From IMG/VR virus record IMGVR_UViG_3300025435_000010, positions 62,001 to 126,000 of that record: a stretch of DNA of 64,000 nucleotides. One strand, given 5' to 3'. Source of the DNA: a virus. The position numbers and the translations under genes were made by a program. Position 1 is the stretch's first letter; every line of letters starts with the position of its first letter. The notes beneath the pieces are model-generated. The model had not been told where the DNA came from. It saw only the letters and a list, made by a program, of their open reading frames with translations, and searched no databases. Shown here piece after piece: positions 1,632 to 51,796 of this stretch.

Positions 1632-1659
1632 TTGAATTAAGCTAAGTCGCTAGTATAAT
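1632..1659 (+). promoter_or_regulatory. Early-type promoter of folE
   Basis: TTGAAT (1632-1637), a 16-bp spacer and a perfect TATAAT (1654-1659), then 6 nt to the ATG at 1666. No Shine-Dalgarno sequence fits between, so the mRNA should be leaderless. It lies back to back with the minus-strand late box at 1624-1629. Confidence 0.7.
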
Positions 1660-1665
1660 AAGCAT

Positions 1666-2316
1666 ATGTCTGAATATACAAAAGAGTATAAACTTAAATT
1701 TGCTAACGGAAATCATCCTCATTCATCTGAAGAGAGACAAGCTATTATCGATAACGCTTCAAAAGCATATGAAGCCTATCTAGACGCTCTTGGCTTTGAT
1801 TGGCGTAACGATCCAAACAGTACCGGTACACCATTGAGAGTAGCTAAAGCATTCGTCAATGATCTTGCAAGTGGTTGTTATGATAACCCTCCGAAGATTA
1901 CATCATTTCCTAGTAATGGATATGATGGAATGGTGTTTCAAGGTGGTATCCCTGTAAAGTCACTCTGTAGCCATCATCACCTTGCTTTTACCGGTGTCGC
2001 ACACGTTGCTTATATACCCTCTGCTGAGGGTCGAGTAATCGGGCTATCGAAGCTTAATCGAATTGTAGAATTTTATGCCCGTCGTCCACAAATTCAGGAA
2101 GGTCTCACAGTGCAGATTCATGATGCTATTAATGGCGTATGTGAGTTGAATAAGGGTGTTGCTGTCATGGTTAGCGCTACGCATACCTGTGCATGTCTTC
2201 GTGGTGTAAAACACGATGGATGTGAAATGAAGACCTCAAAACTTAGTGGAGACTTCTTAGAGGATGGTGCTACAAGAGCTGAATTTTATAACTTTGTAGC
2301 TAATATGAAGAGCTAA
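1666..2316 (+). CDS. folE: GTP cyclohydrolase I
   Basis: Converts GTP to 7,8-dihydroneopterin triphosphate, the first step of folate and of queuosine/7-deazaguanine synthesis. The 216-aa protein has the usual family length and signature: CSHHH at 101-105 (zinc ligand Cys101 and active-site histidines), the strand HVAYIP, GRVIGLSKLNRIVEFYARRPQ, QEGLTVQI, and ATHTCACLRG with Cys175 as the second zinc cysteine. The ATG at 1666 is fixed by the promoter 6 nt upstream. It stands alone on the plus strand between two minus-strand late clusters. With queC at 19099-19812 it may feed preQ0 synthesis for DNA or tRNA modification, but queD and queE are not in the window, and a pterin or thymidylate role is also possible. 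Confidence 0.95.
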   Translation: MSEYTKEYKLKFANGNHPHSSEERQAIIDNASKAYEAYLDALGFDWRNDPNSTGTPLRVAKAFVNDLASGCYDNPPKITSFPSNGYDGMVFQGGIPVKSLCSHHHLAFTGVAHVAYIPSAEGRVIGLSKLNRIVEFYARRPQIQEGLTVQIHDAINGVCELNKGVAVMVSATHTCACLRGVKHDGCEMKTSKLSGDFLEDGATRAEFYNFVANMKS

Positions 2317-2723
2317 ACGCCTCTCTTAACATCTACCAAAGCGTTGAGCCGTCTAATAAACGGCTCTCCTATTAATACTTGCTGTTCATTCTCAGCACGA
2401 TCAGCAATACTAAATGTTACATCATTGTAACTTTTGTTGTTTAAAACAATATTAAGTACAACCGTTGGGCGGCTTTCGATGTTACCGCTACCAATATTAA
2501 TATCAATACTGCCAGTACGAGGGAGTGTAATTTTTTTATCATTGATGGTGGTAAAGGTTATGGTATCATCACCATTGTCATCAATATCTACACCGTGTAG
2601 TACATTGTAGGCTTCATTTCCACTATCTATTTTTGCGACAACAGATCCAATCCCATCTATTGTTATATATTCTGTAACACCGAGAATAGGTCTATTTTGT
2701 GTAAAATCTTTAAATGTTTTCAT
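2313..2723 (-). CDS. Retropepsin-like aspartic protease (RimB / 'ATP-dependent zinc protease' family) with capsid-targeting-like N-terminus
   Basis: This 136-aa protein starts MKTFKDFTQN, very close to the T4 capsid-targeting peptide. From residue 14 it shows the pattern of the small retropepsin-like family that includes RimB: ITIDGIGSVVAKIDSGN with the DSG active-site triad at 33-35, then LHG, a strand FTTIND, IESRPTVVLNIVL, and the C-terminal FSIADR...QVLIGEPFI. The family fold is an aspartic protease that normally dimerises. It is the last gene of a four-gene late run starting at 3427 and shares a 4-nt CTAA stop-codon overlap with folE. I infer that it is packaged and acts on head or host proteins. 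Confidence 0.7.
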   Translation of the reverse strand: MKTFKDFTQNRPILGVTEYITIDGIGSVVAKIDSGNEAYNVLHGVDIDDNGDDTITFTTINDKKITLPRTGSIDINIGSGNIESRPTVVLNIVLNNKSYNDVTFSIADRAENEQQVLIGEPFIRRLNALVDVKRGV

Positions 2724-2727
2724 AAAA

Positions 2728-2976
2728 TTATTTTTTCTTCCAAGATATTCGTTTAGAACTTCTTTTAAGTCTCTTCCTACTATTACACATGCTCATTGTC
2801 GGTCTACAGGCTGGGTAACCTCTACGTTTTTCTCCTTTTTGTCTACCACACGCCTTACCTGTCTTACAGTCAACCCATCCTTTACCGTGATTACGTGTGA
2901 ACCATCCATGAAGACCTTGTTTTTTCTCTTTCTCAAATCCTTCTAGGATAAAATTAACTAAAGAGTCAAATTTCAT
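2728..2976 (-). CDS. Small cysteine-rich basic packaged protein (DUF5872-like, 82 aa)
   Basis: The N-terminus MKFDSLVNFILEGF is an amphipathic targeting-like segment with an ILE-G site. The rest is very basic with a conserved-looking cysteine pattern (GWVDCKTGKACGRQKGEKR, YPACRPTMSMC). This pattern recurs in small proteins of phages and large DNA viruses, which I recall as DUF5872. The four cysteines suggest a zinc-binding knuckle, and the tail KRLKRSSKRISWKKK should bind nucleic acid. The ATG overlaps the stop of the 50-aa gene upstream (ATGA), and the gene is 4 nt from the protease gene, so translational coupling is likely. A DNA-condensing head protein is a reasonable inference. Confidence 0.65.
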   Translation of the reverse strand: MKFDSLVNFILEGFEKEKKQGLHGWFTRNHGKGWVDCKTGKACGRQKGEKRRGYPACRPTMSMCNSRKRLKRSSKRISWKKK

Positions 2977-3125
2977 TTTTTCTTCCAGATTTTACCTTGA
3001 CGGCACTTTACTACTGCTCCAGATTTATAAGCAGATGTCTTTTTACCATATACAGAATCAGCTCTGCGTAAGCAGCGATCGCGTTTAACTTTTTCTTCAG
3101 TTAAGAATTGCTTAAAGGTTAACAT
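2973..3125 (-). CDS. 50-aa basic protein with a near-perfect capsid-targeting peptide
   Basis: A short gene read from ATG 3125 to TGA 2973. It begins MLTFKQFLTEEK, almost the same as the T4 targeting peptide MKTYQEFIxE and as the starts of the 5856 and 6548 genes, with an LTE-E cleavage-like site. The remaining 40 residues are basic with two cysteines (RDRCLRRADSVYGKKTSAY, VVKCRQGKIWKKK). It overlaps the gene upstream by 7 nt and the gene downstream by 4 nt (ATGA), exactly as expected for a coupled operon. It is likely a small DNA-binding packaged protein. No known family is recognised. Confidence 0.75.
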   Translation of the reverse strand: MLTFKQFLTEEKVKRDRCLRRADSVYGKKTSAYKSGAVVKCRQGKIWKKK

Positions 3126-3427: not shown

Positions 3428-3432
3428 AATAA

Positions 3433-3438: not shown

Positions 3439-3449
3439 ATGTGAGAGAA

Positions 3450-7000: not shown

Positions 7001-7615
7001 TTATATGAAGAGAAGTTGCTTTGTTTTGAGTTGATTAAAATACTTCTCACTAAGAAATGTAAGATTATTTCGCTTAGCAAAGCTTTTTACCCTAGCAAAA
7101 GTGTAGTGTGATCTCATAAAGTCTTTATTCCATAAAAAATTACGTAACCGTTCAATAAGTTCAACAGCATTACCGTCACGCTTATCATATGCTTCTTTAA
7201 GTTGACTAAATTTAATATCATGCTTATTGTATAATTTACGTAGCATCTCAAAATTTGAATCCTTTGTATAACCATAAATGCTTATAGGTAATAATTTTGC
7301 AATTTGTATAACTACTTGATCGATATGTTTTTGTATATCGTTTTCTTTAAAATATTGCAGCATTAATAATGCATCTGTACAATTTGTTTTAAGTATAATT
7401 ACTCTTTCTTTTGTTTTAAGAGCTAAAAGATATTCACAAAGACCGTGAAAGATATGATGATATAAGAGTTTCTTTATATCTCTGTTAATTATTTTGGAAT
7501 TTAAAAGCTGATATTTTGAAAGATCATTAATCAGATCAATTTCTATAGATCTATAGATAGAAGTAAAATCTATAAGTTGTAAATTAAACTGTTTAAAGGT
7601 ACAACTCTCAATCAC
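7001..7615 (-). CDS. Hypothetical helical protein (204 aa), GTG start
   Basis: I do not recognise this protein. It is predicted mostly helical, Lys/Leu-rich, with no signal peptide or membrane span and no clear catalytic motif. The GTG at 7615 is chosen because an early-type promoter ends exactly 6 nt upstream. Unlike its neighbours it therefore looks early rather than late, and its N-terminus (MIESCTFKQFNLQLIDF) is only weakly like a targeting peptide. It lies 15 nt downstream of the GIY-YIG gene. It may be an early host-takeover or accessory protein, but nothing in the sequence proves this. Confidence 0.6.
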   Translation of the reverse strand: MIESCTFKQFNLQLIDFTSIYRSIEIDLINDLSKYQLLNSKIINRDIKKLLYHHIFHGLCEYLLALKTKERVIILKTNCTDALLMLQYFKENDIQKHIDQVVIQIAKLLPISIYGYTKDSNFEMLRKLYNKHDIKFSQLKEAYDKRDGNAVELIERLRNFLWNKDFMRSHYTFARVKSFAKRNNLTFLSEKYFNQLKTKQLLFI

Positions 7616-7621
7616 TAATTC

Positions 7622-7650
7622 ATTATAACCTCATAATTTAAATTTTGCAA
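7622..7650 (-). promoter_or_regulatory. Early-type promoter for 7615 gene
   Basis: Minus strand TTGCAA (7650-7645), 17-bp spacer, perfect TATAAT (7627-7622), then 6 nt to GTG at 7615. It overlaps the end of the GIY-YIG gene. Confidence 0.55.
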
Positions 7651-8067: not shown

Positions 8068-8316
8068 TTACATTCCCGTTGAATATATACCTCTACGCTG
8101 TACAGGTACTTTTCTTTTCTTCTTCCTACCTATCTTCTTACCACCTAAAATTGATGGAATTCGTGCATCACCTGGTGCATATGCTGCATCGTTTTGGGAG
8201 GGAAATTGATTTCCGTAATTACCTGAAGTAGCTGGACCAGTAACAGCACCTGTTCCCCCTACAACATTTGCGAGTTCTGTTAATAATTGATCTACAAGTT
8301 TATTAAAATTGCTCAT
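8068..8316 (-). CDS. Small Gly-rich basic packaged protein (82 aa)
   Basis: The first 15 residues (SNFNKLVDQLLTELAN) form an amphipathic helix with an LTE-L cleavage-like site, like the other putative packaged proteins. A Gly/Ala/Asn-rich middle is followed by a strongly basic tail (GGKKIGRKKKRKVPVQRR). No family is recognised. A TAAGTA late-like box lies 7 nt upstream of its ATG. The gene is divergent from uvsY, and its start codon touches the -35 element of the uvsY promoter. Confidence 0.65.
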   Translation of the reverse strand: MSNFNKLVDQLLTELANVVGGTGAVTGPATSGNYGNQFPSQNDAAYAPGDARIPSILGGKKIGRKKKRKVPVQRRGIYSTGM

Positions 8317-8343
8317 TGATTTTTACTTACCTTATACTATATT
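8316..8343 (+). promoter_or_regulatory. Early-type promoter of uvsY
   Basis: TTGATT (8316-8321), 16-bp spacer, TATATT (8338-8343), then 8 nt to ATG 8352. This decides the uvsY start: the in-frame TTG at 8316 is part of the -35 box, not a start codon. Confidence 0.6.
8324..8329 (-). promoter_or_regulatory. Late-like box (TAAGTA) inside the uvsY promoter
   Basis: Minus-strand GTAAGTA, 7 nt before the ATG at 8316. It lies within the spacer of the plus-strand early promoter, so both could not be occupied at once. Confidence 0.4.
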
Positions 8344-8351
8344 TAAGTTTA

Positions 8352-8741
8352 ATGCTTGAAGAATATATAAAAGAACTTGAAGAAGATCTTAAGATTAATG
8401 AGTTAAATCTTAAAGACTATCAACTTCGCTTACCTGCTATTAAACATAAATGGACAGGTAGATGTATTCGTCTTAAATCCCAGATTAACTCTCTCAAGAA
8501 ACAAAGAGATAAAGTCAAATCTGATATAATGTCTGAAATTGACCATACAAGTAACGTAAAGCTAACACAGCCTATTATAGCCGCAACAGCAGACAAGCAT
8601 AGTCGAATTCAAGATATTAATTTAAAAATACAAGACGCGGAATTAATTGTTGAACTCTTAGAACGCTCAGAAAAAACTTTAAGCAGCTGTAGTTATGATA
8701 TAAGCAATATAATAAAGATAATGCAGCTTGAAACAACATGA
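8352..8741 (+). CDS. uvsY: UvsY-like recombination mediator
   Basis: A 129-aa helical protein (T4 UvsY is 137 aa) starting MLEEYIKELEEDLKIN. It has the pattern LRLPAIKHKWTGRCIRLKSQ, a coiled-coil region, ATADKHSRIQDINLKIQDAE and a helical C-terminus. Identity to T4 UvsY is low by eye; the call rests on size, this helix pattern and its place directly upstream of uvsW, as in T4. UvsY loads UvsX on gp32-covered single-stranded DNA. The ATG at 8352 is preferred over an upstream TTG because of the promoter position. Its last 4 nt overlap uvsW (ATGA). Confidence 0.7.
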   Translation: MLEEYIKELEEDLKINELNLKDYQLRLPAIKHKWTGRCIRLKSQINSLKKQRDKVKSDIMSEIDHTSNVKLTQPIIAATADKHSRIQDINLKIQDAELIVELLERSEKTLSSCSYDISNIIKIMQLETT

Positions 8742-10201
8742 TAAAGTTTGATTATGACGAGAAAAAAAGATTAGGTATTATATCGGGTGATTTATTCGAC
8801 GAAATACGAGAATATTTTTCTGTAAAAAATGAAGCAGCACACTTTATGCGTAGACGTGGTAGGTTTATGCCTGCTAGGACATATGCTATAACACCTACAG
8901 GTAGATTTGAACCTTGTTTGTATACGGAAATTAAAAAGTTTATAACGAGTCAGCAATATGTAGGTGAGATTGAATATAGTAAAGAATTATTCGAACAAGT
9001 TGTACCTGCAAGACATGGCTGGCATCAGCAATTAGATTTTAAAAGCGAAATTTATCCTCTTAAGTTAAATTTAAGAGACTATCAAGAAGATATAGTTAAG
9101 GAATGTATGTTTAATGGCAGAGGTACAATTATCTTAGCAACAGCAGGTGGTAAAACCCTAACATCAGCCTCTTTAATATCGAAAATTTACAGCTTGTACA
9201 TGTCTGCATATAATAAAAAAAGCTTTAAATGTCTTTTTATTGTACCGGATAGAGGTCTTGCATCACAGACTTATCAAGATTTTATTGATTATGGTGTACC
9301 GTTTAGTGTCTCAAAATGGACTGGGGATGATGACTTAAATCTATCTACTAATGTTGTTGTATCTAATCTTGGTATCCTACAAAGTAAAAATAGTAATTTA
9401 GATTGGCTTGAAGATATTGATCTTCTTATCGTTGATGAAGTACATAAAATTCGTAAAGGCAATAAAATAAATGATATTCTTAAGAAGATTAAAACACCAT
9501 ATAAATTTGGATTTACAGGTACAATGCCTGAAGAGAATCTCGATCAATGGAATATTATAGGTAAGATAGGTCCTATAATTTATGAGAAAAATAGCTACGA
9601 CTTAAGACAGGAAAGCTACGTTAGTAATGCATCTATTCAAATTATAAAATTAATTCATAAAAACGAACCAAAGAAAAGCGATAACGGTAACGCGTATAGA
9701 GAAGAAATAGAATATCTTACTACCTCTATTTTTCGTAATGAACTCATAGCAAGACTTGCTAAGGGATTAAACCAGAATTCACTTATTATGGTTGATTATA
9801 TTCAACACGGGGAGCTGTTATTTGATATTATTCAACGAATGATGCCTGAAAAACAATGTTTCTTTATTCGTGGAGAAGTAGAAGTTGAAGAAAGAGATCG
9901 TGTCAGACAACTTATGGAGACTAATAGTAATGTTGTTGTAGTTGCTATATCGAAAATATTCTCAACTGGTATTAATATTAAAAACCTACACTATATTATT
10001 TTTGCATGTGGCGGTAAAGCTAAGATAAAAATCGTACAATCTATTGGTCGAGGTCTTAGGTTGCATAAGGATAAATCTAAGCTTATAATATTTGATATTA
10101 CTGATGATCTGCGCTATAGCGCAGCCCATGCATTAAAAAGACAAGCACTTTATGAAAAAGAACACATCCCGTTTGCAATCAAAAACATCGAAGAAAAGTA
10201 A
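8738..10201 (+). CDS. uvsW: UvsW-like SF2 DNA/RNA helicase
   Basis: An ATP-dependent helicase that in T4 unwinds R-loops and recombination intermediates and helps shift replication from origin- to recombination-dependent mode. The 487-aa protein has an N-terminal accessory domain, LRDYQEDIV (Q-like motif, about 110), Walker A ATAGGKT (about 133), IVDEVHK (motif II, about 232) and GFTGTMPE (motif III). The C-terminal RecA domain has IGRGLR as motif VI. T4 UvsW is of similar size. It is coupled to uvsY by a 4-nt overlap and overlaps the gp55 gene by 50 nt, so this is one early/middle operon. Confidence 0.9.
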   Translation: MIKFDYDEKKRLGIISGDLFDEIREYFSVKNEAAHFMRRRGRFMPARTYAITPTGRFEPCLYTEIKKFITSQQYVGEIEYSKELFEQVVPARHGWHQQLDFKSEIYPLKLNLRDYQEDIVKECMFNGRGTIILATAGGKTLTSASLISKIYSLYMSAYNKKSFKCLFIVPDRGLASQTYQDFIDYGVPFSVSKWTGDDDLNLSTNVVVSNLGILQSKNSNLDWLEDIDLLIVDEVHKIRKGNKINDILKKIKTPYKFGFTGTMPEENLDQWNIIGKIGPIIYEKNSYDLRQESYVSNASIQIIKLIHKNEPKKSDNGNAYREEIEYLTTSIFRNELIARLAKGLNQNSLIMVDYIQHGELLFDIIQRMMPEKQCFFIRGEVEVEERDRVRQLMETNSNVVVVAISKIFSTGINIKNLHYIIFACGGKAKIKIVQSIGRGLRLHKDKSKLIIFDITDDLRYSAAHALKRQALYEKEHIPFAIKNIEEK

Positions 10202-10763
10202 GCCGAAGAAAGAGCCTAAAATTCTTGATCTTAATCTTATTGGTAATGAGACAGAGGATATTGTTGATGTCTTACCTATTGAAGTTATTGAATCATTACC
10301 TATTGTCGATGAAGCAAGTCCTCCTAAAAAAGTAAAACCCAAGGATAAGGTTCATTATGTTAATAGTAGAGAATTTGAAGATGAAATTAAAAGTTACTAT
10401 AATACAGATGTAATGACAGATAAGTTATGCGAAAGTATTAACAAAATTGCTAACGGTTTATCTTATGCTCCAAACTTCTTAAATTATTCTTATAAAGAGG
10501 ACATGGTCGGTGACGCTGTTGTTAAGATGTTTTCAGCTTTAAAGAATAAAAAATTTAAGATTGATTGTGGATTTAGCCCATTTTCGTATTTTACTACGAT
10601 TGCTTTTCATGCTTTTATTAATAGAATTAAGAAAGAAAAAAAACATCACGAAGCTATTAATGAGTACCGGGATAAGGTGTACACAGAATTAATGTTGAAT
10701 CCTGAAGAGAATAACGGTGCACATATTTACGTTGAGCCAACCGGTGACGATCCAGAAGAATAA
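10152..10763 (+). CDS. 55: gp55-like late-transcription sigma factor
   Basis: A 203-aa protein with a low-complexity basic N-terminus (about 1-65). A region matching the sigma-like core of T4 gp55 follows: YSYKEDMVGDAVVKMFSALK and then FSPFSYFTTIAFHAFINRIK, the latter like a sigma region 2 helix. gp55 directs host RNA polymerase to TATAAATA-type late promoters, which agrees with the many TAAATA boxes in this window. The start lies 50 nt inside uvsW; a later start is possible because the N-terminal residues are not conserved-looking. gp47 follows after 2 nt. Confidence 0.85.
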   Translation: MKKNTSRLQSKTSKKSKPKKEPKILDLNLIGNETEDIVDVLPIEVIESLPIVDEASPPKKVKPKDKVHYVNSREFEDEIKSYYNTDVMTDKLCESINKIANGLSYAPNFLNYSYKEDMVGDAVVKMFSALKNKKFKIDCGFSPFSYFTTIAFHAFINRIKKEKKHHEAINEYRDKVYTELMLNPEENNGAHIYVEPTGDDPEE

Positions 10764-13642: not shown

Positions 13643-14860
13643 ATGATCTCTAGTCCTTTTGTATCTCCGTTTGTATCTCCTTTCGTACAGCCATACGGGT
13701 TAATTCCACAACAACCAATGCAACAGGAGATACCTCAGCCTCCTGAGATGAATTTAAAGCGTGTAATGAATTATTATGCCGATTATTCAGGCTGCGGTTT
13801 TTGGCGAATGATTTGGCCTGAACATATTTTAAATGCACATCAAAAAATGGTTGTACATGGTAGTACGATGATGTGCTTTGATCCAAATTATTTTAGAGGA
13901 GCTGAAGTTGTACGTATTCAGCGTCAGGCAACGGTACATCAATTAGAATTCATTAAGTTCTTAAAAAACTTAAGTAAGGATCTTGGATTTAGAATTATTT
14001 ACGAAATTGACGATCTCGTCTTTAGTGAAGATATTCCTGATTATAATAAATTTAAACCCGCCTTTACAGATCCTAATATTCGTAGAACAGCTCAGGAAAT
14101 CATGGAGCTTTGCGATGAAGTTACTGTAACATGCGATTTCATGAAGGATTATTATATGGGTAAGACAGCTAATAAAAATGTTACTGTTATTCCGAATTAT
14201 CCTCCTAAGTTCTGGATGGGTAACTTTTATAATGAAAAGAAAATTTCAGATAATTTTGACAAATATCGCAAGAAGCCTCGTATTCTATATGCAGGTTCCG
14301 GTGCACATTTTGATGTAGATAATCGTGTTGGACAGAACGATGACTTTGCGCATGTTAACCGTGTAATTCGCGCAACAAAAGACAAATATCAATGGGTGTT
14401 CCTTGGTGCATATCCCTTACCGTTACATGATCTTATTCAGAGCAAGGAATTCGAATTCCACCCTTGGGAGACACTTTACCGTTACCCCGAGCGTATTGCT
14501 AATCTTAATGTCCAGATGATGGTTGCACCTCTTCAAGACAATACTTTCAATAAAGCAAAGTCTGATCTGAAGTTTGTAGAAGCATGTTGCTACGGATTAC
14601 CGATCGCTTGTCAAAATCTTGTAACGTATCAAGATGCACCGTATAAATTTGATACAGGTGAAGAAATGATCGATATTGTTGATGATGTTCTTTCAAAGAA
14701 AGGCCGTTATATGAACATTTCATCTTCCATGCGCCGTCGTGCAAATGATCGTTGGTTAGAGAATGATAATAATATTGATAAGTACGTTGAACTACATACT
14801 CTACCATTCGGTCATAAAGATCGTAAGCTCCTAAATGCTATTAATGGTATTAAGGCTTGA
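13643..14860 (+). CDS. GT-B glycosyltransferase
   Basis: A 405-aa protein starting MISSPFVSPFVSPF with a Pro/Gln-rich leader of about 45 residues. The GT-B type core follows, with RIIYEIDDLVF (the end of the N-terminal Rossmann domain), VTVIPNYPPKFW, KKPRILYAGSGAHF, YQWVFLGAYP and the C-terminal SDLKFVEACCYGLPIACQ, the family's nucleotide-sugar binding block. It should transfer a sugar from an activated donor; the acceptor is unknown and may be DNA, a virion protein or the host surface. ATG 13643 is chosen over a GTG at 13604 that lies inside gp46. The stop codon is embedded in the -35 box of the gp43 promoter. Confidence 0.8.
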   Translation: MISSPFVSPFVSPFVQPYGLIPQQPMQQEIPQPPEMNLKRVMNYYADYSGCGFWRMIWPEHILNAHQKMVVHGSTMMCFDPNYFRGAEVVRIQRQATVHQLEFIKFLKNLSKDLGFRIIYEIDDLVFSEDIPDYNKFKPAFTDPNIRRTAQEIMELCDEVTVTCDFMKDYYMGKTANKNVTVIPNYPPKFWMGNFYNEKKISDNFDKYRKKPRILYAGSGAHFDVDNRVGQNDDFAHVNRVIRATKDKYQWVFLGAYPLPLHDLIQSKEFEFHPWETLYRYPERIANLNVQMMVAPLQDNTFNKAKSDLKFVEACCYGLPIACQNLVTYQDAPYKFDTGEEMIDIVDDVLSKKGRYMNISSSMRRRANDRWLENDNNIDKYVELHTLPFGHKDRKLLNAINGIKA

Positions 14861-14885
14861 TTGTAGTATTAGGTTGTAATATACT
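14857..14885 (+). promoter_or_regulatory. Early-type promoter of gene 43
   Basis: TTGATT (14857-14862), which contains the TGA stop of the glycosyltransferase gene, a 17-bp spacer and TATACT (14880-14885), then 6 nt to GTG 14892. No Shine-Dalgarno sequence. Confidence 0.55.
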
Positions 14886-14891
14886 TATTGG

Positions 14892-17480
14892 GTGTACAGG
14901 AACGTATCATATCTACCGCGGGAACAAACAATTAACCTTTATACGTGGGACGAGAACGGTAAACGTATAACCATCCCTTCAACGTTTGAGCCGTACATTT
15001 ATTTGGAAACAAATAATGCACCGGATGCAATGAGTATCTTTGATACGAAGTTGAAGAAGAAGAGATTTAAAAATCAATACGATCGTTCTAGATATCTTAA
15101 AGATAATAAGGTCACTAGGGTATTTGAAAACTTTAACGTTAATCAACAATTCCTAATTGATACATATTGGCAGGATAATGAAAAGTCGGATTTTACTAAA
15201 AATCAGTTAAAGGTACATTTTATTGATATCGAAACATATTCACCTGATGCGTTTCCTAATCCTCAAGATCCTAACGATACAATTAACATTATCACTATCT
15301 ACGATACTCTATCAAAGAAGTTTTATTCCTGGGGACTCAAACCATATACAGCTAAATCAGCTGATGTGATTTATGTTGCATGTAAGACGGAAGATGAACT
15401 ATTGCGCAGGTTTGTAGATTTCTTTAGTAAAGATTATCCTGATATTCTTTCTGGTTGGAACTCAGAGTTTTTTGATGTACCGTATGTAATTAATCGTGTT
15501 AAAAAGGTATTAGGCGAAGAAGCTATGCAGAAGCTTTCACCTGACCGTTCTTTACGCTCTAGGACGTTTATGGGTAAGTATGGACGAGAGCAGACAAAGT
15601 GGCATATTGAAGGACTATCGTGTGTTGATTATCTCGATATCTATAGACGTTTTTGTCAGACACTTCGTGAGTCATATAAGCTCGACGCTATTGGTGAAAT
15701 AGAGCTTCAAGAGCGTAAGATTGATTATGGTGATCAGAATTTGACTGAACTTGCTGATGATAACTGGGAGTTATTTGTAGACTATAATATTCAGGACGTT
15801 AACCTTCTTGTAAGACTTGAACAGAAATTGCAGTATATACAGTTATTGAGAATGATTGCATATGCCGGTCTAACAACGTTTGAAGGTGCTCTTGGCTCTC
15901 TCTCGGTTATTACAGGGCTATGTTCTATCCGAGCTCGGTTAAAAGACAAACGTATTCCTACTTTTGTTAAGGATGTTAAAGAAGGTGAGCAGAACGCAGG
16001 AGCTTACGTAGCAGATCCACAACAAGGCTTTCAAGAACACGTCGTCTCTTTTGACGCTAATAGTCTATATCCAAATACGATGATCACCTTAAATCTATCT
16101 CCTGAGACAAAGGTAGGTAAGATTATCAATAAGACTGAAACAGATATAACTATTAAACATGTTAATGGGCAAACGTTTAATCTAACACATGAAAAATTCG
16201 CTGCATTTGTTAAGCAGGAAGAAATAGCAGTATCACGAGCAAAGATTCTTTTTACTCAAAAAGAAAAAGGAATTATCCCTGATACAATCGATTATTATTA
16301 TAATAAACGAGTTGAAGTAAAAAAGCTTCTAACAAAAGCCAAGAAGAAAGCTCTTACTCTACAAGAAGGTACGGAAGAATACGAGGATAATCAAATTGAA
16401 ATCGACCGACTCAACATTCGACAGCATACGATTAAGATTCTAATGAATACAGTGTATGGGTACTTTGGGAATAAACACAGTCCGCTTGGTGACGATGAAC
16501 TAGCTGAATCAATCACCCTTACAGGTCAAGCAGTTATTAAAGAGTCAAATAGAATTCTCACTGAGTATATTAAGAATAAGGCTCATCTTACAGATAATGA
16601 TATTAAGGAAAGTGATCCTATCATCTATAATGATACAGATTCGAGTTACATCTCTATCAAGCATCTAGTGAAGGCGCTGAAGATACCTGTCTTTGATAAT
16701 GCCGGTAATGTAGCATCGGAGTATTATAAGACAGTAACAGATATTGAAGATCATCTTAATAGAGAAATTACTATTTGGGGTAAGAGTGCTCTCGGATCAA
16801 AGGATTGTCGATTAGTGTTTAAACGTGAGGCTATTGCTGATGTAGGCTTGTTTCTTAGAAAGAAACGATACGTATTGCATACTCTTGATGTTGAGGGTAT
16901 ACCTGGTAAGAAGTTTAAGTATACAGGTGTTGAGGTTGTACGCACTACGATGCCAACACCAATTAAACCTTATGTAAAGAAAATTATTGAGACAATGCTT
17001 CTTACAAAAGATTACGCTACTACAAATAAGATCTTTAATGAAACATATGAAATCTTCAAAGGCCTGCCCTTAGAAGATATAGCATTTGTAATGGGAGTTA
17101 AGGGATACGAAAAGTACGCCAATCATTGTAATGGATTCGAGACAGTAAAGAGAATGCCGAAGCATGTGAAAGCAGCTTACTACCATAATATTCTCCTTGA
17201 TAGATTTGGTATTGAACGAAAGTACGAAAAGATGACATCGGGCGATAAGGTGAGATTCTTTGAAGTAAAGAAACCAAACAGTTTTGGATTGTCTGTTATT
17301 GGTTACAAGTACTACTATCCGAAAGAGTTTCAAAGTGTATTTGAAATTGATCATGAAAAGATGTTTGAAAAGATTATCTACTCTGTCATTGAACGGTTTT
17401 ATGAAGCTGTAAATTGGACTGTTAAAAAGCCTGGTAATGATGCACAAATAGACCTTTTTGACCTTTTGGGTATGAACTAG
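14892..17480 (+). CDS. 43: gp43 family B DNA polymerase, GTG start
   Basis: The replicative polymerase with 3'-5' proofreading. The 862-aa protein (T4: 898) carries Exo I FIDIET (about 109-114), Exo II SGWNSEFFD, Exo III YNIQDVNLL, motif A SFDANSLYPN (about 386), motif B KILMNTVYGYFGNK (about 518) and motif C YNDTDSSY (about 578). All catalytic aspartates and the exonuclease acidic residues are present. The C-terminus QIDLFDLLGMN resembles the clamp-binding tail of T4-type polymerases. GTG at 14892 is supported by the promoter 6 nt upstream and by the absence of an earlier start. Confidence 0.95.
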   Translation: MYRNVSYLPREQTINLYTWDENGKRITIPSTFEPYIYLETNNAPDAMSIFDTKLKKKRFKNQYDRSRYLKDNKVTRVFENFNVNQQFLIDTYWQDNEKSDFTKNQLKVHFIDIETYSPDAFPNPQDPNDTINIITIYDTLSKKFYSWGLKPYTAKSADVIYVACKTEDELLRRFVDFFSKDYPDILSGWNSEFFDVPYVINRVKKVLGEEAMQKLSPDRSLRSRTFMGKYGREQTKWHIEGLSCVDYLDIYRRFCQTLRESYKLDAIGEIELQERKIDYGDQNLTELADDNWELFVDYNIQDVNLLVRLEQKLQYIQLLRMIAYAGLTTFEGALGSLSVITGLCSIRARLKDKRIPTFVKDVKEGEQNAGAYVADPQQGFQEHVVSFDANSLYPNTMITLNLSPETKVGKIINKTETDITIKHVNGQTFNLTHEKFAAFVKQEEIAVSRAKILFTQKEKGIIPDTIDYYYNKRVEVKKLLTKAKKKALTLQEGTEEYEDNQIEIDRLNIRQHTIKILMNTVYGYFGNKHSPLGDDELAESITLTGQAVIKESNRILTEYIKNKAHLTDNDIKESDPIIYNDTDSSYISIKHLVKALKIPVFDNAGNVASEYYKTVTDIEDHLNREITIWGKSALGSKDCRLVFKREAIADVGLFLRKKRYVLHTLDVEGIPGKKFKYTGVEVVRTTMPTPIKPYVKKIIETMLLTKDYATTNKIFNETYEIFKGLPLEDIAFVMGVKGYEKYANHCNGFETVKRMPKHVKAAYYHNILLDRFGIERKYEKMTSGDKVRFFEVKKPNSFGLSVIGYKYYYPKEFQSVFEIDHEKMFEKIIYSVIERFYEAVNWTVKKPGNDAQIDLFDLLGMN

Positions 17481-17517: not shown

Positions 17518-17871
17518 ATGAGCAATCTTATTACCTTCATTGATCACATCGGACGCACCATCATCGGCGAAAATGCTGGTGATACCGATAACGGAGCTTC
17601 TTTCCTTGTAAAGAACCCAGCCATCATTCACGTTCAGCCAACCCAGACCGGGCAGCTTAACGTTCAGACTATTCCCCTTTATTTCCGTGAGTTTATCGGA
17701 GAGAAGTCTAAGGAGAACGGTACAACTTGGAAGTATCATTACGCTAATGTTGTTGTTGGTACAGACGTTGATAATGATCCTCGTCTTACTGACCAGTATG
17801 AGAAGCTTTGGTCAGCTCCCGTTGCAGCTCCCACTGCCGAACCTTCCGTAGTTAAGCTTTTTGATGAGTAA
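17518..17871 (+). CDS. Small, apparently highly expressed hypothetical protein (117 aa)
   Basis: I do not recognise the function. The N-terminal part (LITFIDHIGRTIIGE, ASFLVKNPAIIHVQP, GQLNVQTIPLYFREFI) looks like an all-beta fold. The C-terminus is Ala/Pro-rich and ends in an acidic VKLFDE tail. I have an impression of similar small proteins in marine T4-like phages. The gene is a self-contained unit with a promoter-like sequence immediately upstream and a strong intrinsic terminator 31 nt downstream. Its codons end in C far more often than those of its neighbours (ACC, ATC, GCC, CTT runs), like gp32 and the sheath gene. This suggests an abundant early product, but not its role. Confidence 0.75.
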   Translation: MSNLITFIDHIGRTIIGENAGDTDNGASFLVKNPAIIHVQPTQTGQLNVQTIPLYFREFIGEKSKENGTTWKYHYANVVVGTDVDNDPRLTDQYEKLWSAPVAAPTAEPSVVKLFDE

Positions 17872-17933: not shown

Positions 17934-17961
17934 TTGATTAGGTGAAATGTGATAGTATAAT
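17934..17961 (+). promoter_or_regulatory. Early-type promoter of uvsX
   Basis: TTGATT (17934-17939), 16-bp spacer, TATAAT (17956-17961), then 7 nt to ATG 17969. It starts right after the terminator T-tract. The -10 context AGTATAATAAG is identical to that of folE. Confidence 0.7.
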
Positions 17962-17968
17962 AAGAAAT

Positions 17969-19099
17969 ATGGATAAAGATTTACTTAAAACCCTTTCTGT
18001 TATTGACGAGCATAATTCAGATGCTTGTTTTCTTTCTGAAAATGCACTTTCAAATTTTACTGAGTGTTATGATACCGGTTGTTATGCTCTTAATGCTATT
18101 TTAACTGGTGATTTAAGGAATGGTGGTGTACCGCAAGGTCGTATTATTGGCTTTAGTGGTGAGTCAGGAACAGGTAAAACTCTCATTACCGGTAAAATTT
18201 TAGCTAACGCTCAGAAGAAAGGTGTTATCCCGGTTATTTTTGATTCCGAAATTGCTGTAGATAAAAACTCCGTCCGTGGCGTCGGACTCGATCCTGCTAA
18301 CGTTAAGTACGTACCAATTGATACTATTGAGAAGTGTCGTAACCAAGTTAGTGCCTTACTTGACAAGGTCATTGCTAATAATCAGCATGGTAAGATTATT
18401 ATCTGTATTGATAGTTTAGGTAATCTTGCATCACAGAAAGAGCTTGACGATGCTCTTAAGGATAAGTCAGCTGTTGATATGGGTATGCGCGCTAAGGCTC
18501 TTAAGTCTATGCTTAGAACCTTAACTTATAAGGCCGCTAAAGCTCAGGTTTCTATTATCTTTGTCAATCATACATATTCAGATCCTGCTGCTATGTATCC
18601 ATCTTTGATCAAGTCACAAGCTGGTGGGTCTGGTCCAGTTTATATGGCGAGTATTCTCGTTCAGCTTGCTAAGAGAAATGAAAAAGCAGGCGAAGGTGAG
18701 TTTGGCGGTGTTGAAGATAATAAGCTTTCTGAAGCTAACAAATATAGCGGTGTAACGCTTCGAGCACTTACTGCGAAGAATCGTTTTATTCCTCAATTCC
18801 TTGAGATTGAGATGTATCTATCATTTAAGTCAGGACTAAACAAATACAGTGGCTTGCTTGCCATGGCTACAGCAAGAGGTATTGTAGAGCAGAACGGCGC
18901 TACTTATACTGTCGGAGTCGATGGCGGTAAGTATAAAAAAGGTGATAAGCTTGGTTATGCAAAGAACTTTACTAAGGACGCATCGTTTTATGAAGATTTT
19001 ATTATACCGGCCTTAGACGAAGCGCTTAAAACAGATTATCGTTATCATCAAGCCTCTGATGATCTTATTGATGATGTGGTAGAGCAAAACGCAGAATAA
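17969..19099 (+). CDS. uvsX: UvsX RecA-like recombinase
   Basis: The strand-exchange protein of the T4 recombination system. The 376-aa protein (T4: 391) has Walker A GESGTGKT (about 64-71), the DSEIAVDK catalytic region, Walker B KIIICIDSLGN (about 142) and the L2/VSIIFVNHTY region. The ATG at 17969 (MDKDLLKTL) is chosen over an in-frame GTG at 17942, which lies inside the promoter. The C-terminus is acidic (DDVVEQNAE). The stop overlaps the queC ATG by one base (TAATG), so the two genes are co-transcribed. Confidence 0.93.
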   Translation: MDKDLLKTLSVIDEHNSDACFLSENALSNFTECYDTGCYALNAILTGDLRNGGVPQGRIIGFSGESGTGKTLITGKILANAQKKGVIPVIFDSEIAVDKNSVRGVGLDPANVKYVPIDTIEKCRNQVSALLDKVIANNQHGKIIICIDSLGNLASQKELDDALKDKSAVDMGMRAKALKSMLRTLTYKAAKAQVSIIFVNHTYSDPAAMYPSLIKSQAGGSGPVYMASILVQLAKRNEKAGEGEFGGVEDNKLSEANKYSGVTLRALTAKNRFIPQFLEIEMYLSFKSGLNKYSGLLAMATARGIVEQNGATYTVGVDGGKYKKGDKLGYAKNFTKDASFYEDFIIPALDEALKTDYRYHQASDDLIDDVVEQNAE

Positions 19100-20726: not shown

Positions 20727-20754
20727 TTGAATTATTTATTCTTGAAGGTATAAT
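20727..20754 (+). promoter_or_regulatory. Early-type promoter for the amidotransferase gene
   Basis: TTGAAT (20727-20732), 16-bp spacer, TATAAT (20749-20754), 9 nt to ATG 20764. Confidence 0.65.
20733..20738 (-). promoter_or_regulatory. Late box (TAAATA) inside the divergent early promoter
   Basis: Minus-strand AATAAATA, 9 nt before the ATG at 20723. It lies entirely in the spacer of the plus-strand early promoter. Confidence 0.5.
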
Positions 20755-20763
20755 ATATTCATA

Positions 20764-21447
20764 ATGTGTGGAATTTTCGCTGCTGCTGATTTTAACAAAT
20801 ATATAAAACTTTATCTTAAAAATAAAGAAAGAGGTACATTTGCCTATGGAGCTTTGTTTTTGAGTCATACCTATGATGCAGCTATGAAAACAGAGGGTAC
20901 AGTTGAATTATCAAAAAATATGATAATCAATAATATAGACATGCAGATGAAGCCATCAGAGTTTTATTATTTTATGGGCCATACCCAAGCTCCAACTAGT
21001 TCAAAGCGCATATATGACGAATCAACATCGCATCCGTTTCATTGTGGTAATTGGGTAGTGGCGCATAATGGTGTTCTTACAAACGATAAGAAGCTTAAAA
21101 GTAAAATTAAAAATATGAGTCACTATAATGAAGTAGATACTTCTGTAATACCTGCTCTTTTAAATCAATATTCTGAAGAGATGGACAATGAGGTAGGATT
21201 AATTTGTGAAGTCTTATCAAAGCTTGAAGGTACATTCGGTCTTTGGATTTATAATAAACAATCTCACAACGTATATTTTGTACGATCAGGTAGCACTCTT
21301 TACGCAAATATCTTAGATAATACTGTCTCATCTCTTCCTGATAATGATCTTGTACCTCTCGAAGAAGGAGTGCTATATCTCGTAACACTGGAGGGTTTAA
21401 CCTCTGTCGGAGGCTTTACAAATAACTCACCATTTTTTATTCTATGA
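20764..21447 (+). CDS. Class II glutamine amidotransferase (Ntn hydrolase)
   Basis: Releases ammonia from glutamine with an N-terminal cysteine nucleophile. The start MCGIFAA places Cys2 at the N-terminus. GHTQAPTS (72-79), HPFHCGNW, AHNGVLTN with the HNG motif at 101-103, NEVDTSVI and LEGTFGLWIY follow, as in the glutaminase domains of PurF, GlmS and asparagine synthetase. There is no synthetase domain; the 227-aa protein is the glutaminase alone. Archaeal and some phage GAT-QueC proteins fuse this domain to QueC to make archaeosine-type bases. Here queC lies 950 nt upstream as a separate gene, so it may be the split partner. It overlaps the following glycosyltransferase by 4 nt. Confidence 0.88.
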   Translation: MCGIFAAADFNKYIKLYLKNKERGTFAYGALFLSHTYDAAMKTEGTVELSKNMIINNIDMQMKPSEFYYFMGHTQAPTSSKRIYDESTSHPFHCGNWVVAHNGVLTNDKKLKSKIKNMSHYNEVDTSVIPALLNQYSEEMDNEVGLICEVLSKLEGTFGLWIYNKQSHNVYFVRSGSTLYANILDNTVSSLPDNDLVPLEEGVLYLVTLEGLTSVGGFTNNSPFFIL

Positions 21448-25867: not shown

Positions 25868-25873
25868 AACAGT

Positions 25874-27796: not shown

Positions 27797-27824
27797 TTGT
27801 TTTTAATATTTTTGGTCATATACT
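27797..27824 (+). promoter_or_regulatory. Early-type promoter of gene 61
   Basis: TTGTTT (27797-27802), 16-bp spacer, TATACT (27819-27824), 6 nt to GTG 27831. Confidence 0.6.
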
Positions 27825-27830
27825 GATGAT

Positions 27831-29271: not shown

Positions 29272-29279
29272 TATTTATA
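29272..29279 (-). promoter_or_regulatory. Perfect T4 late promoter TATAAATA
   Basis: Minus-strand TATAAATACTATT then ATG at 29266: an exact T4 late box, with predicted initiation on the A of ATG. Confidence 0.8.
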
Positions 29280-29300: not shown

Positions 29301-29693
29301 ATGAAAAAGAAGGTTCTATTTGAGGATACAGTTTCATACTATAATAAGTGGGTATCTGGTCAAGCTGCACGTGAATTCGGTGCCATTAAAATGAAATTCA
29401 AGGACCTAACTGGACAGGATAAAGGTAAACTAACACAGAGTCCTAACGATGCTAGAGCGAATAATGTATTACCTTTCCCTCTACCGAACACAGCATCAGT
29501 TCTCGGTGATTTGCTTACAAATACAACAAATTCACTAACTTTGTTTAAAGATGCTCTTAAGCATCCGTTAATTAGAGAAGACGAAAAAGCGAAAAAGGAA
29601 ATTGAATTAATTGTTAACTGCTTAAACAAATCACTATTAGATCTCAAACAGATCTTTGTTGTACTTACAAAAAGCGCTAAAGAAGACGCTTGA
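29301..29693 (+). CDS. Hypothetical protein, possibly virion (130 aa)
   Basis: No family is recognised. The N-terminus MKKKVLFEDTVSYYNKW is weakly like the targeting peptides (LFE-D). Residues 30-75 are polar (DKGKLTQSPNDARANN), and 75-130 are helical (SVLGDLLTNTTNSLTLFKDA, EIELIVNCLNKSLLDLKQIF). The late box and the divergent targeting-peptide gene suggest a late virion-related product. Its TGA stop is part of the -35 box of the next promoter. Confidence 0.65.
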   Translation: MKKKVLFEDTVSYYNKWVSGQAAREFGAIKMKFKDLTGQDKGKLTQSPNDARANNVLPFPLPNTASVLGDLLTNTTNSLTLFKDALKHPLIREDEKAKKEIELIVNCLNKSLLDLKQIFVVLTKSAKEDA

Positions 29694-29718
29694 TTTTAAG
29701 TGTTTATAGCATTATTAT
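29690..29718 (+). promoter_or_regulatory. Early-type promoter for 29725 gene
   Basis: TTGATT (29690-29695, containing the upstream stop), 17-bp spacer, TATTAT (29713-29718), 6 nt to ATG 29725. Confidence 0.55.
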
Positions 29719-29724
29719 ATAGTA

Positions 29725-30138
29725 ATGCTCGGTAAACTTTTAACACAATTAACAGCGCTAATTATAGTTGCTATATTATTTGGCTTACTATTACAACACT
29801 CTGGTGTTAGCTTATTTATAAGCATTCCACTCGGTATAATTCTTCAATTTGGTGTGTATTATGCGTTTATTACTATTCTCAATGCTTTTGTAGAATTAAG
29901 AAATAAAAAGCTTGAAAACGAACGCATTAAAGAATTTAGCCTTCAAGGTCTTGAGGTAACATGTCCTTGTGCTCTAAAGAAAATAGAGTTTGTTCCTATT
30001 ATTCTCAATACCGACAACAAATATACGTGTAATTTTTGTCAAAAAAATGTTAGCGTATATGTCGTACCCGAAACAGCACTTGTAACAGAACCACTTGCTC
30101 TTACACAGATGCCACCAATAATTCCGCTGCCTGAATAA
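29725..30138 (+). CDS. Membrane protein with two TM helices and a C-terminal zinc ribbon (137 aa)
   Basis: Two hydrophobic segments (LTALIIVAILFGLLL and SLFISIPLGIILQFGVYYAF, about residues 10-55) should form a hairpin in the inner membrane. A charged helix (VELRNKKLENERIKEF) is followed by CPC and CNFC pairs about 25 residues apart, a likely zinc ribbon, probably on the cytoplasmic side, and a Pro-rich tail. The function is unknown. The early-type promoter suggests a role during takeover, for example anchoring a complex to the membrane, which is speculation. Confidence 0.7.
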   Translation: MLGKLLTQLTALIIVAILFGLLLQHSGVSLFISIPLGIILQFGVYYAFITILNAFVELRNKKLENERIKEFSLQGLEVTCPCALKKIEFVPIILNTDNKYTCNFCQKNVSVYVVPETALVTEPLALTQMPPIIPLPE

Positions 30139-32197: not shown

Positions 32198-32205
32198 TAT
32201 TTATA
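32198..32205 (-). promoter_or_regulatory. Perfect T4 late promoter TATAAATA
   Basis: Minus-strand TATAAATATATCT then GTG at 32192. It starts directly after the T-tract of the terminator at 32207-32236. Confidence 0.75.
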
Positions 32206-35633: not shown

Positions 35634-35641
35634 CATAAATA
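35634..35641 (+). promoter_or_regulatory. Late promoter (CATAAATA) of gene 18
   Basis: CATAAATACTTTAT then ATG 35648; the box ends 6 nt from the start. Confidence 0.7.
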
Positions 35642-38594: not shown

Positions 38595-38612
38595 AGAATT
38601 AGCTACTTAACC

Positions 38613-38618
38613 TAAATA
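38613..38618 (+). promoter_or_regulatory. Late box (TAAATA) for 38624 gene
   Basis: CTAAATA ending 5 nt before GTG 38624. Confidence 0.6.
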
Positions 38619-41222: not shown

Positions 41223-41253
41223 AGATCCTATAATCATCTAGGTTGTTTTATGA

Positions 41254-41259
41254 TAAATA
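41254..41259 (+). promoter_or_regulatory. Late box (TAAATA) for 41266 gene
   Basis: GATAAATA ending 6 nt before ATG 41266. Confidence 0.6.
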
Positions 41260-44397: not shown

Positions 44398-44404
44398 AGG
44401 TAAT

Positions 44405-44410
44405 TAAATA
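44405..44410 (+). promoter_or_regulatory. Late box (TAAATA) for 44416 gene
   Basis: TTAAATA, 5 nt before ATG 44416. Confidence 0.6.
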
Positions 44411-45807: not shown

Positions 45808-45841
45808 CAGTAAAACAAGTTTTAAAAGCGTGATATTGCGC

Positions 45842-45847
45842 TAAATA
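45842..45847 (+). promoter_or_regulatory. Late box (TAAATA) for 45853 gene
   Basis: CTAAATA, 5 nt before ATG 45853. Confidence 0.6.
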
Positions 45848-50819: not shown

Positions 50820-51287
50820 TTAGTCTATTCTCTTATTTTCAATAAGATCAGCTTCAATTGGTTTTGCTTTATCTACGAGCATTTTAAAAATCTCTTCTCT
50901 TGTTGCAAGTAATTTGTGTGTATTGTTATCCTGTTGAAGCTCTTTTCTAGATGCTATATCCATCTCCTTGAGTTTAACAGAAGTAGTTGAGCGTTTATCT
51001 TGAATAGTTAAATGATTAAGTGAATCAATAGCAGAAGAGGCAGCTTTAATTAATCCCGCAAGTGCTTCAACATCCTCAGCATTAGGCGCAGAGATAATAA
51101 AGTCTTTGACAGTAGCAACCATTTCTAAAGCATCCTGAACCAATGCAGCTCCATTTTCAATAGTAAATTTCTCGAGCTCCTCCTTAGTAATAGGATCTCT
51201 CTCTTTTTTTACATCCTTTACCTTAACGCTAACTGCTTGAAGCTGGTCAAGTAATGTTTCAACTTCATCATGTATCTCATCATCCAT
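50820..51287 (-). CDS. gp16-like small terminase (tentative)
   Basis: A 155-aa all-helical protein (T4 gp16: 164 aa). The segment from GAALVQDALEMVATVKDFIISAP through DVEALAGLIKAASSAIDSLNHL and KRSTTSVKLKEMDIA to LLATREEIFKMLVDKAKP resembles the central coiled-coil and C-terminal parts of gp16-type small terminases, which recognise DNA for packaging. Identity is weak by eye, and there is no N-terminal targeting peptide. If correct, it is 16 kb from gp17 and on the other strand, which is unusual. A TAAGTA late-like box precedes it by 10 nt. Confidence 0.45.
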   Translation of the reverse strand: MDDEIHDEVETLLDQLQAVSVKVKDVKKERDPITKEELEKFTIENGAALVQDALEMVATVKDFIISAPNAEDVEALAGLIKAASSAIDSLNHLTIQDKRSTTSVKLKEMDIASRKELQQDNNTHKLLATREEIFKMLVDKAKPIEADLIENKRID

Positions 51288-51297
51288 ACTGTAGATA

Positions 51298-51303
51298 TAC
51301 TTA
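51298..51303 (-). promoter_or_regulatory. Late-like box (TAAGTA) for 51287 gene
   Basis: Minus-strand TAAGTA, 10 nt from the ATG at 51287, close to the divergent dut promoter. Confidence 0.35.
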
Positions 51304-51310
51304 TTCCAGG

Positions 51311-51338
51311 TTGATTTTAAATAAAGGTATATTATTAT
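51311..51338 (+). promoter_or_regulatory. Early-type promoter of dut-gp44
   Basis: TTGATT (51311-51316), 16-bp spacer, TATTAT (51333-51338), 8 nt to ATG 51347. Confidence 0.65.
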
Positions 51339-51346
51339 AGGCTTAT

Positions 51347-51796
51347 ATGTCTGATCCTAATATTCACTATCTTCCTATTTTAAAGTTTGAAAAGACCCAT
51401 GAATTAGCTAAGCTTCCTACTAAGAATCACGAATCCGATACCGGTTATGATGTCTATAGTGTTGAAGATGCTGTGGTTCCTGCTAGAGGAAGCGCTGTTG
51501 TCCCTGTTGGTCTTAAGTTTGCCTATATCCCTGAAGGGTATTGGGTTAAAGTAGAGAGTCGTAGCGGCCTAGGATTTAAACACGGTGTTACAGCTCATCC
51601 AGGTATTATTGATAACGCCTATCGCGGTGATGCCGGTATTAAGCTCTATAACAATACCGACGTACCGTATGAGGTTAAAGCTGGTGATAGGATTGCGCAA
51701 TTTGTAATCTATATGAATATTCATATGCCAGTAGAGTGGGGTAAAGCTGATAGTACTGAGCGTGGTGAAAAAGGTTTCGGTGCTTCCGGACGATAA
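51347..51796 (+). CDS. dut: dUTP diphosphatase
   Basis: Hydrolyses dUTP to dUMP, keeping uracil out of DNA and feeding dTMP synthesis. The 149-aa trimeric-type enzyme has all five motifs: DTGYDV, ESRSGLGFKHG, GIIDNAYRGDAGIKL, GDRIAQFVI and the C-terminal RGEKGFGASGR. The start is fixed by the early promoter 8 nt upstream. gp44 follows after a single base, so the two genes form one early unit. Confidence 0.95.
   Translation: MSDPNIHYLPILKFEKTHELAKLPTKNHESDTGYDVYSVEDAVVPARGSAVVPVGLKFAYIPEGYWVKVESRSGLGFKHGVTAHPGIIDNAYRGDAGIKLYNNTDVPYEVKAGDRIAQFVIYMNIHMPVEWGKADSTERGEKGFGASGR

Follow-up and report, generated by a model that had tools for sequence, protein, structure and literature searches.

The DNA analysed here, a window of 64,000 nucleotides (nt) covering positions 62001-126000 of the 131,144-base virus record IMGVR_UViG_3300025435_000010, comes from an uncultured phage that on its gene content is of the T4 type and that carries promoters directly at its start codons. 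In the lineage of this phage, most transcription units very probably begin at their first start codon or at most about 3 nt away from it, as judged from the promoter sequences. A preliminary description of the window had proposed leaderless messenger RNAs (mRNAs) for the early genes. This proposal held up against other ATG/GTG codons, other T4-like phages, held-out DNA, related loci and a validation of the start codons, and it turned out to be too narrow, in that the late genes have the same layout.

We hypothesize that the early units are read from host-type sigma70 promoters, whose -10 hexamer is mostly separated from the start codon by 6 nt, and the late units from gp55-type late boxes, mostly 5 nt before the start codon, so that +1 would coincide with the initial A or G of this codon in both promoter classes. 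We infer that the RNA 5' ends lie at these positions, that host ribosomes would bind the 5'-terminal AUG or GUG unaided by a Shine-Dalgarno sequence, and that translation of the downstream genes in an operon would be coupled to the preceding gene's stop codon.

Promoters at the start codons

The eleven early promoters of the preliminary description were all recovered when the coordinates were rechecked, and their -10 hexamers end 6-9 nt before the start codon. A gap of 6 nt is the commonest and occurs in 7 of 11, among them each of the three with a GTG start. They are given here together with the promoter of a 117-amino-acid gene:

22..58, minus strand: early promoter of a 225-amino-acid open reading frame running off the left edge; -35 TTGATT 58-53, -10 CATACT 36-31, gap 6, ATG 24-22
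1632..2316, plus strand: early promoter and folE (GTP cyclohydrolase I); TTGAAT 1632-1637, TATAAT 1654-1659, gap 6, ATG 1666
7001..7650, minus strand: early promoter and 7615 gene; TTGCAA 7650-7645, TATAAT 7627-7622, gap 6, GTG 7615
8316..8741, plus strand: early promoter and uvsY (Pfam match just under the cut-off); TTGATT, TATATT, gap 8, ATG 8352
14857..17480, plus strand: early promoter and gp43 DNA polymerase; TTGATT 14857-14862, TATACT 14880-14885, gap 6, GTG 14892
17518..17871, plus strand: 117-amino-acid gene; TATATT, gap 6, ATG, with a poor -35 element (TTTTAA) at a spacer of 15
17934..19099, plus strand: early promoter and uvsX; TTGATT, TATAAT, gap 7, ATG 17969
20727..21447, plus strand: early promoter and glutamine-amidotransferase-domain gene; TTGAAT, TATAAT, gap 9, ATG 20764
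25840..26608, plus strand: early promoter and 25874 gene; TTGTTT, TATTAT, gap 6, ATG 25874
27797..28865, plus strand: early promoter and DnaG-like primase (gp61 in the preliminary description); TTGTTT, TATACT, gap 6, GTG 27831
29690..30138, plus strand: early promoter and 29725 gene; TTGATT, TATTAT, gap 6, ATG 29725
51311..51796, plus strand: early promoter and dUTPase; TTGATT, TATTAT, gap 8, ATG 51347

Some details had to be amended. The motifs are mostly TTGATT, TTGAAT or TTGTTT with a TATWAT-type hexamer, as first described, but TTGCAA also serves as a -35 element and CATACT, TATACT and TATATT as -10 hexamers, and the promoter at the left edge lies on the minus strand. The absence of Shine-Dalgarno sequences was claimed for all of these starts, and ten of the eleven indeed have no such 4-mer at -18 to -5; the exception is a GAGG at -17 to -14 of the 7615 gene, which sits above the -10 hexamer and thus outside the predicted mRNA.

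The late promoters follow the same pattern. TAAATA was found 4-9 nt before 18 of the 62 called starts as compared to 8 of 3062 other ATG/GTG (Fisher P of about 2e-26), and at the same distance from only 1 of 333 internal in-frame ATG/GTG. The commonest gap is 5 nt (8 of 18), as against 6 nt for the sigma70 sites. The late boxes would be expected to be read by the late sigma factor that is listed first:

10152..10763, plus strand: gp55-type late sigma factor (PHROG 234, E-value 3.4e-23)
1624..1631, minus strand: late box CATAAATA, gap 6, ATG 1617(-)
27590..27597, plus strand: late box ACTAAATA, gap 5, ATG 27603
29272..29279, minus strand: late box TATAAATA, followed by CTATT (gap 5) and ATG 29266(-)
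32198..32205, minus strand: late box TATAAATA, gap 5, GTG 32192(-)
35634..35641, plus strand: late box CATAAATA, gap 6, ATG 35648 of the tail sheath gene
38611..38618, plus strand: late box CCTAAATA, gap 5, GTG 38624
41252..41259, plus strand: late box GATAAATA, gap 6, ATG 41266
44403..44410, plus strand: late box ATTAAATA, gap 5, ATG 44416
45840..45847, plus strand: late box GCTAAATA, gap 5, ATG 45853
53376..53383, plus strand: late box GATAAATA, gap 5, GTG 53389 of a baseplate wedge gene
59430..59437, plus strand: late box GCTAAATA, gap 5, ATG 59443
63072..63079, minus strand: late box AATAAATA, gap 6, ATG 63065(-)

In sigma70 promoters the -10 hexamer ends at -7, which leaves six bases before +1. 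The late box of T4 is 8 bp long with a T at -13, replaced by A at nine T4 sites, according to passages of PMC2988020; with -13 taken as the first base of the box, five bases remain between the box and +1. The gaps of 6 nt (sigma70) and 5 nt (late) thus equal the box-to-+1 distances, and in both promoter classes the predicted +1 is the first base of the start codon. Terminator-like GC hairpins with a T run were also observed at 17907-17932 and at about 32206-32240, directly before the putatively leaderless units of uvsX and 32192(-), respectively.

Gene-wide counts were based on called starts that had been set by a promoter-blind rule allowing only ATG and GTG. This gave 63 genes in the window, of which one at the edge was dropped. 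Seven stretches were left uncovered by the gene caller, including 23521-24467 and gp61 at 27831, and misplaced starts (17942 instead of 17969 for uvsX, 10413 instead of 10152 for gp55) were retained in the counts. A single permissive early-or-late rule was applied, with a background of 7.41% (early) plus 4.14% (late) among 3064 other ATG/GTG. Upstream space of 20 nt or more is available to 33 window genes, and a promoter at leaderless distance was identified for 26 of these (expected 3.8, P of about 8e-19), whereas genes with less than 10 nt upstream fitted the rule at the level of chance (3 of 21, expected 2.4). The preliminary description had named an equal motif density at random in-frame ATGs as a possible refutation; the comparison with other ATG/GTG came out in its favour, as the rule fits about 11.6% of these codons and 26/33 of the genes. 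The corresponding counts were 24/31 and 3/18 in a further 45 kb of this genome, which had played no part in setting up the test. Over all called genes, background included, the rule fitted 36/62 in the window and 32/56 in the held-out DNA.

Searches that ignore the genes point in the same direction. An Escherichia coli sigma70 matrix placed an ATG at offset 6 for 18 of its 68 sites in the held-out DNA (expected 1.1) and TTG or CTG for none. The 75 late boxes in the window have ATG/GTG at offsets 5-7 in 22 cases (expected 5.7), with TTG and CTG close to background. Hence, in both the window and the held-out DNA, ATG/GTG is enriched at the predicted position and TTG/CTG is not.

Conservation in related loci

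A search with gp43 yielded related loci, of which the best 80 of 156 (56-100% identical) were retained. A survey of 778 genes in 79 of these loci, without deduplication other than the omission of one 100% copy, contained 493 genes with upstream space, before which -10-like hexamers peak at a gap of 6 (97 cases) and late boxes at a gap of 5 (34 cases). Gene-blind searches in the relatives gave 304 sigma70 sites, at which offset 6 holds 17 ATG (expected 5.1) and 17 GTG (expected 2.5), and 1278 late boxes with 57, 38 and 37 ATG at offsets 5-7 (expected 21.6 each). The 16 top-scoring sigma70 sites of the relatives carried no start-codon signal at offset 6.

For comparisons by orthologous family, only upstream sequences less than 80% alike were counted, and orthologues were excluded if the aligned start had no ATG/GTG at a distance of up to four codons (for example, 19/33 for 20764 and 28/43 for 19099). 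A promoter at leaderless distance was present in 229 of 246 differing upstream sequences from nine early families, and Shine-Dalgarno motifs in only 6 of the 246. The promoter was found for gp43 in 50/52 (gap 6 in 38), the 17518 gene in 43/43, uvsX in 33/36, 7615 in 26/28, gp41 in 20/24, 25874 in 19/20, gp32 in 18/20, uvsY in 12/14 and 20764 in 8/9. Eight operon-internal families gave 21/152. FolE had one match, without a usable start, and 10 of the 34 families tried gave no match, probably since the loci do not reach them.

The boxes and their spacing are mostly kept upstream of gp43, while the sequence between the boxes varies widely. In 44 gp43 sequences, differences within codons 2-11 are concentrated in third positions (0.26, 0.22 and 0.55 by codon position), whereas no codon pattern is seen upstream of the start (0.58, 0.64 and 0.57), and an in-frame stop occurs at most 60 nt upstream in 43/44 cases. 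The same pattern was obtained for uvsX (30 sequences), gp41 (24) and the 25874 gene (20); three further genes, represented by 3-5 sequences each, agree with it. Judging from this conservation, the start codons are correct, and coding conservation begins at codon 2. The gp43 match was also observed to be about 990 nt longer in four relatives (L013, L014, L015 and L019) than in the others, which suggests an intron or intein in their DNA polymerase gene.

About 20 immediate-early promoter cassettes, conserved from -36 to about +13, were observed at positions 2996-13427 of locus L086, which belongs to the same genome outside the window. Each contains, in this order, CTTGA, a spacer with two TTCC words at a distance of 11 nt from each other, one of the hexamers TATACT and CATAAT, six bases and ATGAAAAATAA; the paired TTCC words between the -35 and -10 elements are perhaps a regulator site. 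Each cassette precedes a small open reading frame that starts with MKNK or a like sequence and in one case has just 11 codons; the encoded proteins are mostly unrelated by eye, although two are alike. The first 19 cassettes were found by a pattern that required ATG at 6 nt; with a matrix that ends at -7 and is blind to ATG, 11/17 and 6/9 of the untrained hits have ATG at that place.

The assignment of the phage to the T4 type is based on replication, late sigma and structural genes. Pfam identified gp43, uvsX, dUTPase and folE in the window, which also encodes a gp41-like DnaB. PHROG matches included gp32, tail sheath and tail tube, and further T4-type matches were to gp55, helicase, gp46 and terminase. 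The Pfam matches of uvsY and gp61 are weak and below curated cut-offs, and the 25874 gene, previously labelled gp45, matched neither Pfam nor PHROG. As regards a place in the Kyanoviridae or another named family, the closest named phage by gp43 among the matches listed is 30.8% identical, and no near match at the DNA level was obtained for window positions 1-25000. No match was obtained when the C48C1 protein was used to look for RegA, an empty answer that carries no weight. Among the genes at 24(-), 1666, 19099 and 20764 we also observed a QueD-like open reading frame, at 24(-), and a QueC-like protein. Together with FolE and the glutamine amidotransferase, these (QueD by eye) suggest a pathway to 7-deazaguanine that perhaps serves to modify DNA.

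Translation, host and rival explanations

Several observations weigh against leaderless transcription as a general rule. The promoter rule is permissive, with its background of about 11.6%, and 7 of the 33 window genes with upstream space have no promoter by it: 8316(-), 17942, 24507, 30836, 33254, 39564 and 51287(-). On visual inspection, 17942 is a miscalled start (for 17969) and 39564 has CTAAGTA; for 24507 (gp32), the promoter is present in 18/20 upstream sequences of the relatives, and for 8316(-) in only 3/10. Gaps of 7-9 nt imply leaders of 1-3 nt. The gene-blind sigma70 signal is weak in the window itself (81 sites; 2 ATG and 3 GTG at offset 6, expected 1.3 and 0.7), where the E. coli matrix is too blunt, and this is the weakest of our tests. 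In the relatives, TTG at offset 6 of the late boxes is more frequent than expected (37 versus 25.7), and the undeduplicated set has a smaller late-box peak at a gap of 15 (20 cases). The operon-internal gp47 family lies above chance (8/27, the highest of the eight), and six late families are less clean than the early ones (41/65, including 16/30 and 3/10). Finally, gp43 starts with GTG in 40/52 upstream sequences, although 5'-terminal GUG is weak in E. coli and Caulobacter according to excerpts of PMC9031893.

Shine-Dalgarno motifs are scarce. One precedes 1 of the 33 window genes that have upstream space of 20 nt or more. In the relatives, the motif was found at 19/493 genes with upstream space as compared to 648/5224 internal RTG codons, and at 29/242 genes with less than 10 nt; operon-internal genes thus show no Shine-Dalgarno excess. 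Mycobacterial ribosomes accept 5'-terminal AUG and GUG but not CUG and UUG, as stated in a portion of PMC4633059.

Rather than matching a leaderless-prone host, the phage or its kin may retune the host ribosome toward leaderless or non-Shine-Dalgarno mRNAs, for example by a phage-encoded bS21. This would add to the explanation favoured here and does not exclude it, and we consider it rather unlikely. The family (PF01165) was identified in 12 of 22 records searched, all 12 of them relatives and 11 above the family cut-off. In eight relatives (L109-L116) the gene lies between homologues of the window genes 23521 and 23811, and 7 of the 8 sequences carry a terminal tail rich in aromatic residues (W-K-F/Y-Y). 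In Bacteroidetes phages, bS21 has been proposed to select phage transcripts, and such aromatic residues are, in a view cited in the same paper, thought to help block the anti-Shine-Dalgarno sequence (PMC9723584, from the passages available). However, the record of this phage, which may be incomplete, gave no bS21 match, and its own 23521 and 23811 genes are adjacent with no bS21 between them, yet its promoters are equally leaderless. Moreover, the first early mRNAs would presumably have to be translated before any new phage protein is made. A broader scenario, to which we likewise give little credence, is that an entire lineage among the T4-like phages exchanged Shine-Dalgarno-led for leaderless initiation, early and late, and that sister lineages added a bS21 whose tail blocks the anti-Shine-Dalgarno sequence and tilts ribosomes to such mRNAs.

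The host clues are mixed. Going by their sample numbers, the relatives probably come from freshwater. The bS21 of the relatives, with a Corynebacterium control not matching the family, argues weakly against an actinobacterial host, and the frequent GTG starts weakly favour one. No WhiB gene, which would hint at an actinobacteriophage, was found in 28 records (0/1 and 0/27), although a phage need not carry one. FolE was tried as a host clue and set aside, since its matches (15 contig loci, 39-47% identity, 14 of them Bacteroidota) are uninformative on the host.

Compaction alone could also have pressed the promoters against the starts, in which case the leaders would be short rather than absent and the register incidental. 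Many of the intergenic spaces before these genes measure only 23-70 nt, with scant room for a promoter and a leader. However, compaction predicts neither distinct preferred gaps (6 for sigma70, 5 for late boxes) nor, in this genome, an enrichment of ATG/GTG without TTG/CTG, and the tested T4 regions are also compact, yet most of their late boxes lie 23-28 nt away and are combined with Shine-Dalgarno motifs; we therefore regard this explanation as improbable. Least credible of all is that the boxes are not promoters but an AT-rich translation signal in leadered mRNAs, since, although the phage and its kin resemble Bacteroidetes in having no Shine-Dalgarno excess (as the abstract of PMC6847099 describes for the latter), -35 TTG elements accompany the -10 box at 15-18 nt spacing, early and late boxes separate by gene family, and the block is no more frequent than chance where a gene has less than 10 nt upstream.

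Comparison with known systems

No paper describing leaderless mRNAs as a systematic feature of a T4-type phage was found in the open literature, judged by titles and abstract openings, and the available passages of papers on T4-like phage promoters do not mention leaderless mRNAs. Phage transcripts "are often leaderless" in the words of one paper, yet phage AR9 has leaders of 26-491 nt (PMC5312081, in part). Leaderless initiation is thus already known, and what looks new is that most of a T4-like programme would employ it. Leaderless mRNAs are usually a minority feature, and a phage group that relies on leaderless units would provide a natural test of high-output initiation on 5'-terminal AUG/GUG. 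If true, our interpretation would also improve gene calling for relatives in metagenomes and point to a host with unusual initiation.

The same rule was applied to called genes with upstream space in other T4-like phages, and fitted 2/16 in the T4 late region, 0/7 in Syn9 and P-SSM2, 0/15 in ACP17, 0/26 in Cr30, 4/23 in C48C1 and 9/45 in HTVC008M. With annotated starts, the counts were 0/20 for T4 early/middle genes, 1/17 for T4 late genes, 1/7 for the Syn9 replication region and 5/19 for HTVC008M. T4 and Syn9 are accordingly near chance, and the leaderless layout in HTVC008M appears mainly at late genes. Among the phages tested, leaderless early genes as a rule are seen only in the lineage described here, to the extent that promoter positions can tell.

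T4 shares with this phage a gp55 homologue and NTAAATA boxes for late transcription (T4 late box TATAAATA), and differs in their placement: 10 of 15 late boxes in the annotated T4 late region lie 23-28 nt upstream, as opposed to mostly 5-7 nt here. Shine-Dalgarno motifs precede 31/41 genes in the T4 late stretch and 7/62 starts in the window. Their scarcity is not unique, given 0/8 in the Syn9 late stretch and 2/15 in P-SSM2, with 18/43 in the Syn9 replication region.

The Pelagibacter phage HTVC008M has eight late boxes 5 nt from ATG in its first 50 kb, as here, but differs in having Shine-Dalgarno motifs at 63/115 called genes and none of its best sigma70 sites at 5-9 nt. A marine set of 80 HTVC008M-like loci was collected around one homologous gene, with exact 40-nt copies removed and near-copies retained; 52 loci were used for a listing of upstream sequences and 48 for gene counts. 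The 48 loci contain 101 genes and 30 late boxes, 27 of them at 5 nt and 2 at 6, and Shine-Dalgarno motifs occur at 0/29 of these late-box genes as compared to 54/101 of all genes. Seven differing upstream sequences of the query gene included four with a box at leaderless distance, one without, and two in which a box was seen by eye 5 nt before an ATG slightly upstream. We observed in these marine kin (L085 and L117-L164, L117 being HTVC008M itself) late promoters at 5 nt without Shine-Dalgarno motifs beside genes that have them. The boxes at 5 nt imply that late genes may also be leaderless in the group of a cultured phage, and no description of such promoters was met in the literature searches made. 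The comparison suggests a series of steps in T4-like phages, from T4 (leader and Shine-Dalgarno sequence) through HTVC008M (late genes leaderless) to this lineage (both classes).

The lambda cI transcript is another phage mRNA called leaderless (PMC9031893, in the excerpts available), as a single gene and without a genome-wide rule. Closer in layout are the TA-led genes of bacteria, in which TANNNT about 12 bp before the start is read as a sign of leaderless transcription, the same arrangement as here; according to sections of PMC3160421, these genes are a minority, with an average of 19.2% in Actinobacteria and a maximum of 46.1% in Deinococcus radiodurans. Unlike in these bacteria, the promoters described here are found at 26/33 and 24/31 of the genes with upstream space, in a virus, and in two promoter classes.

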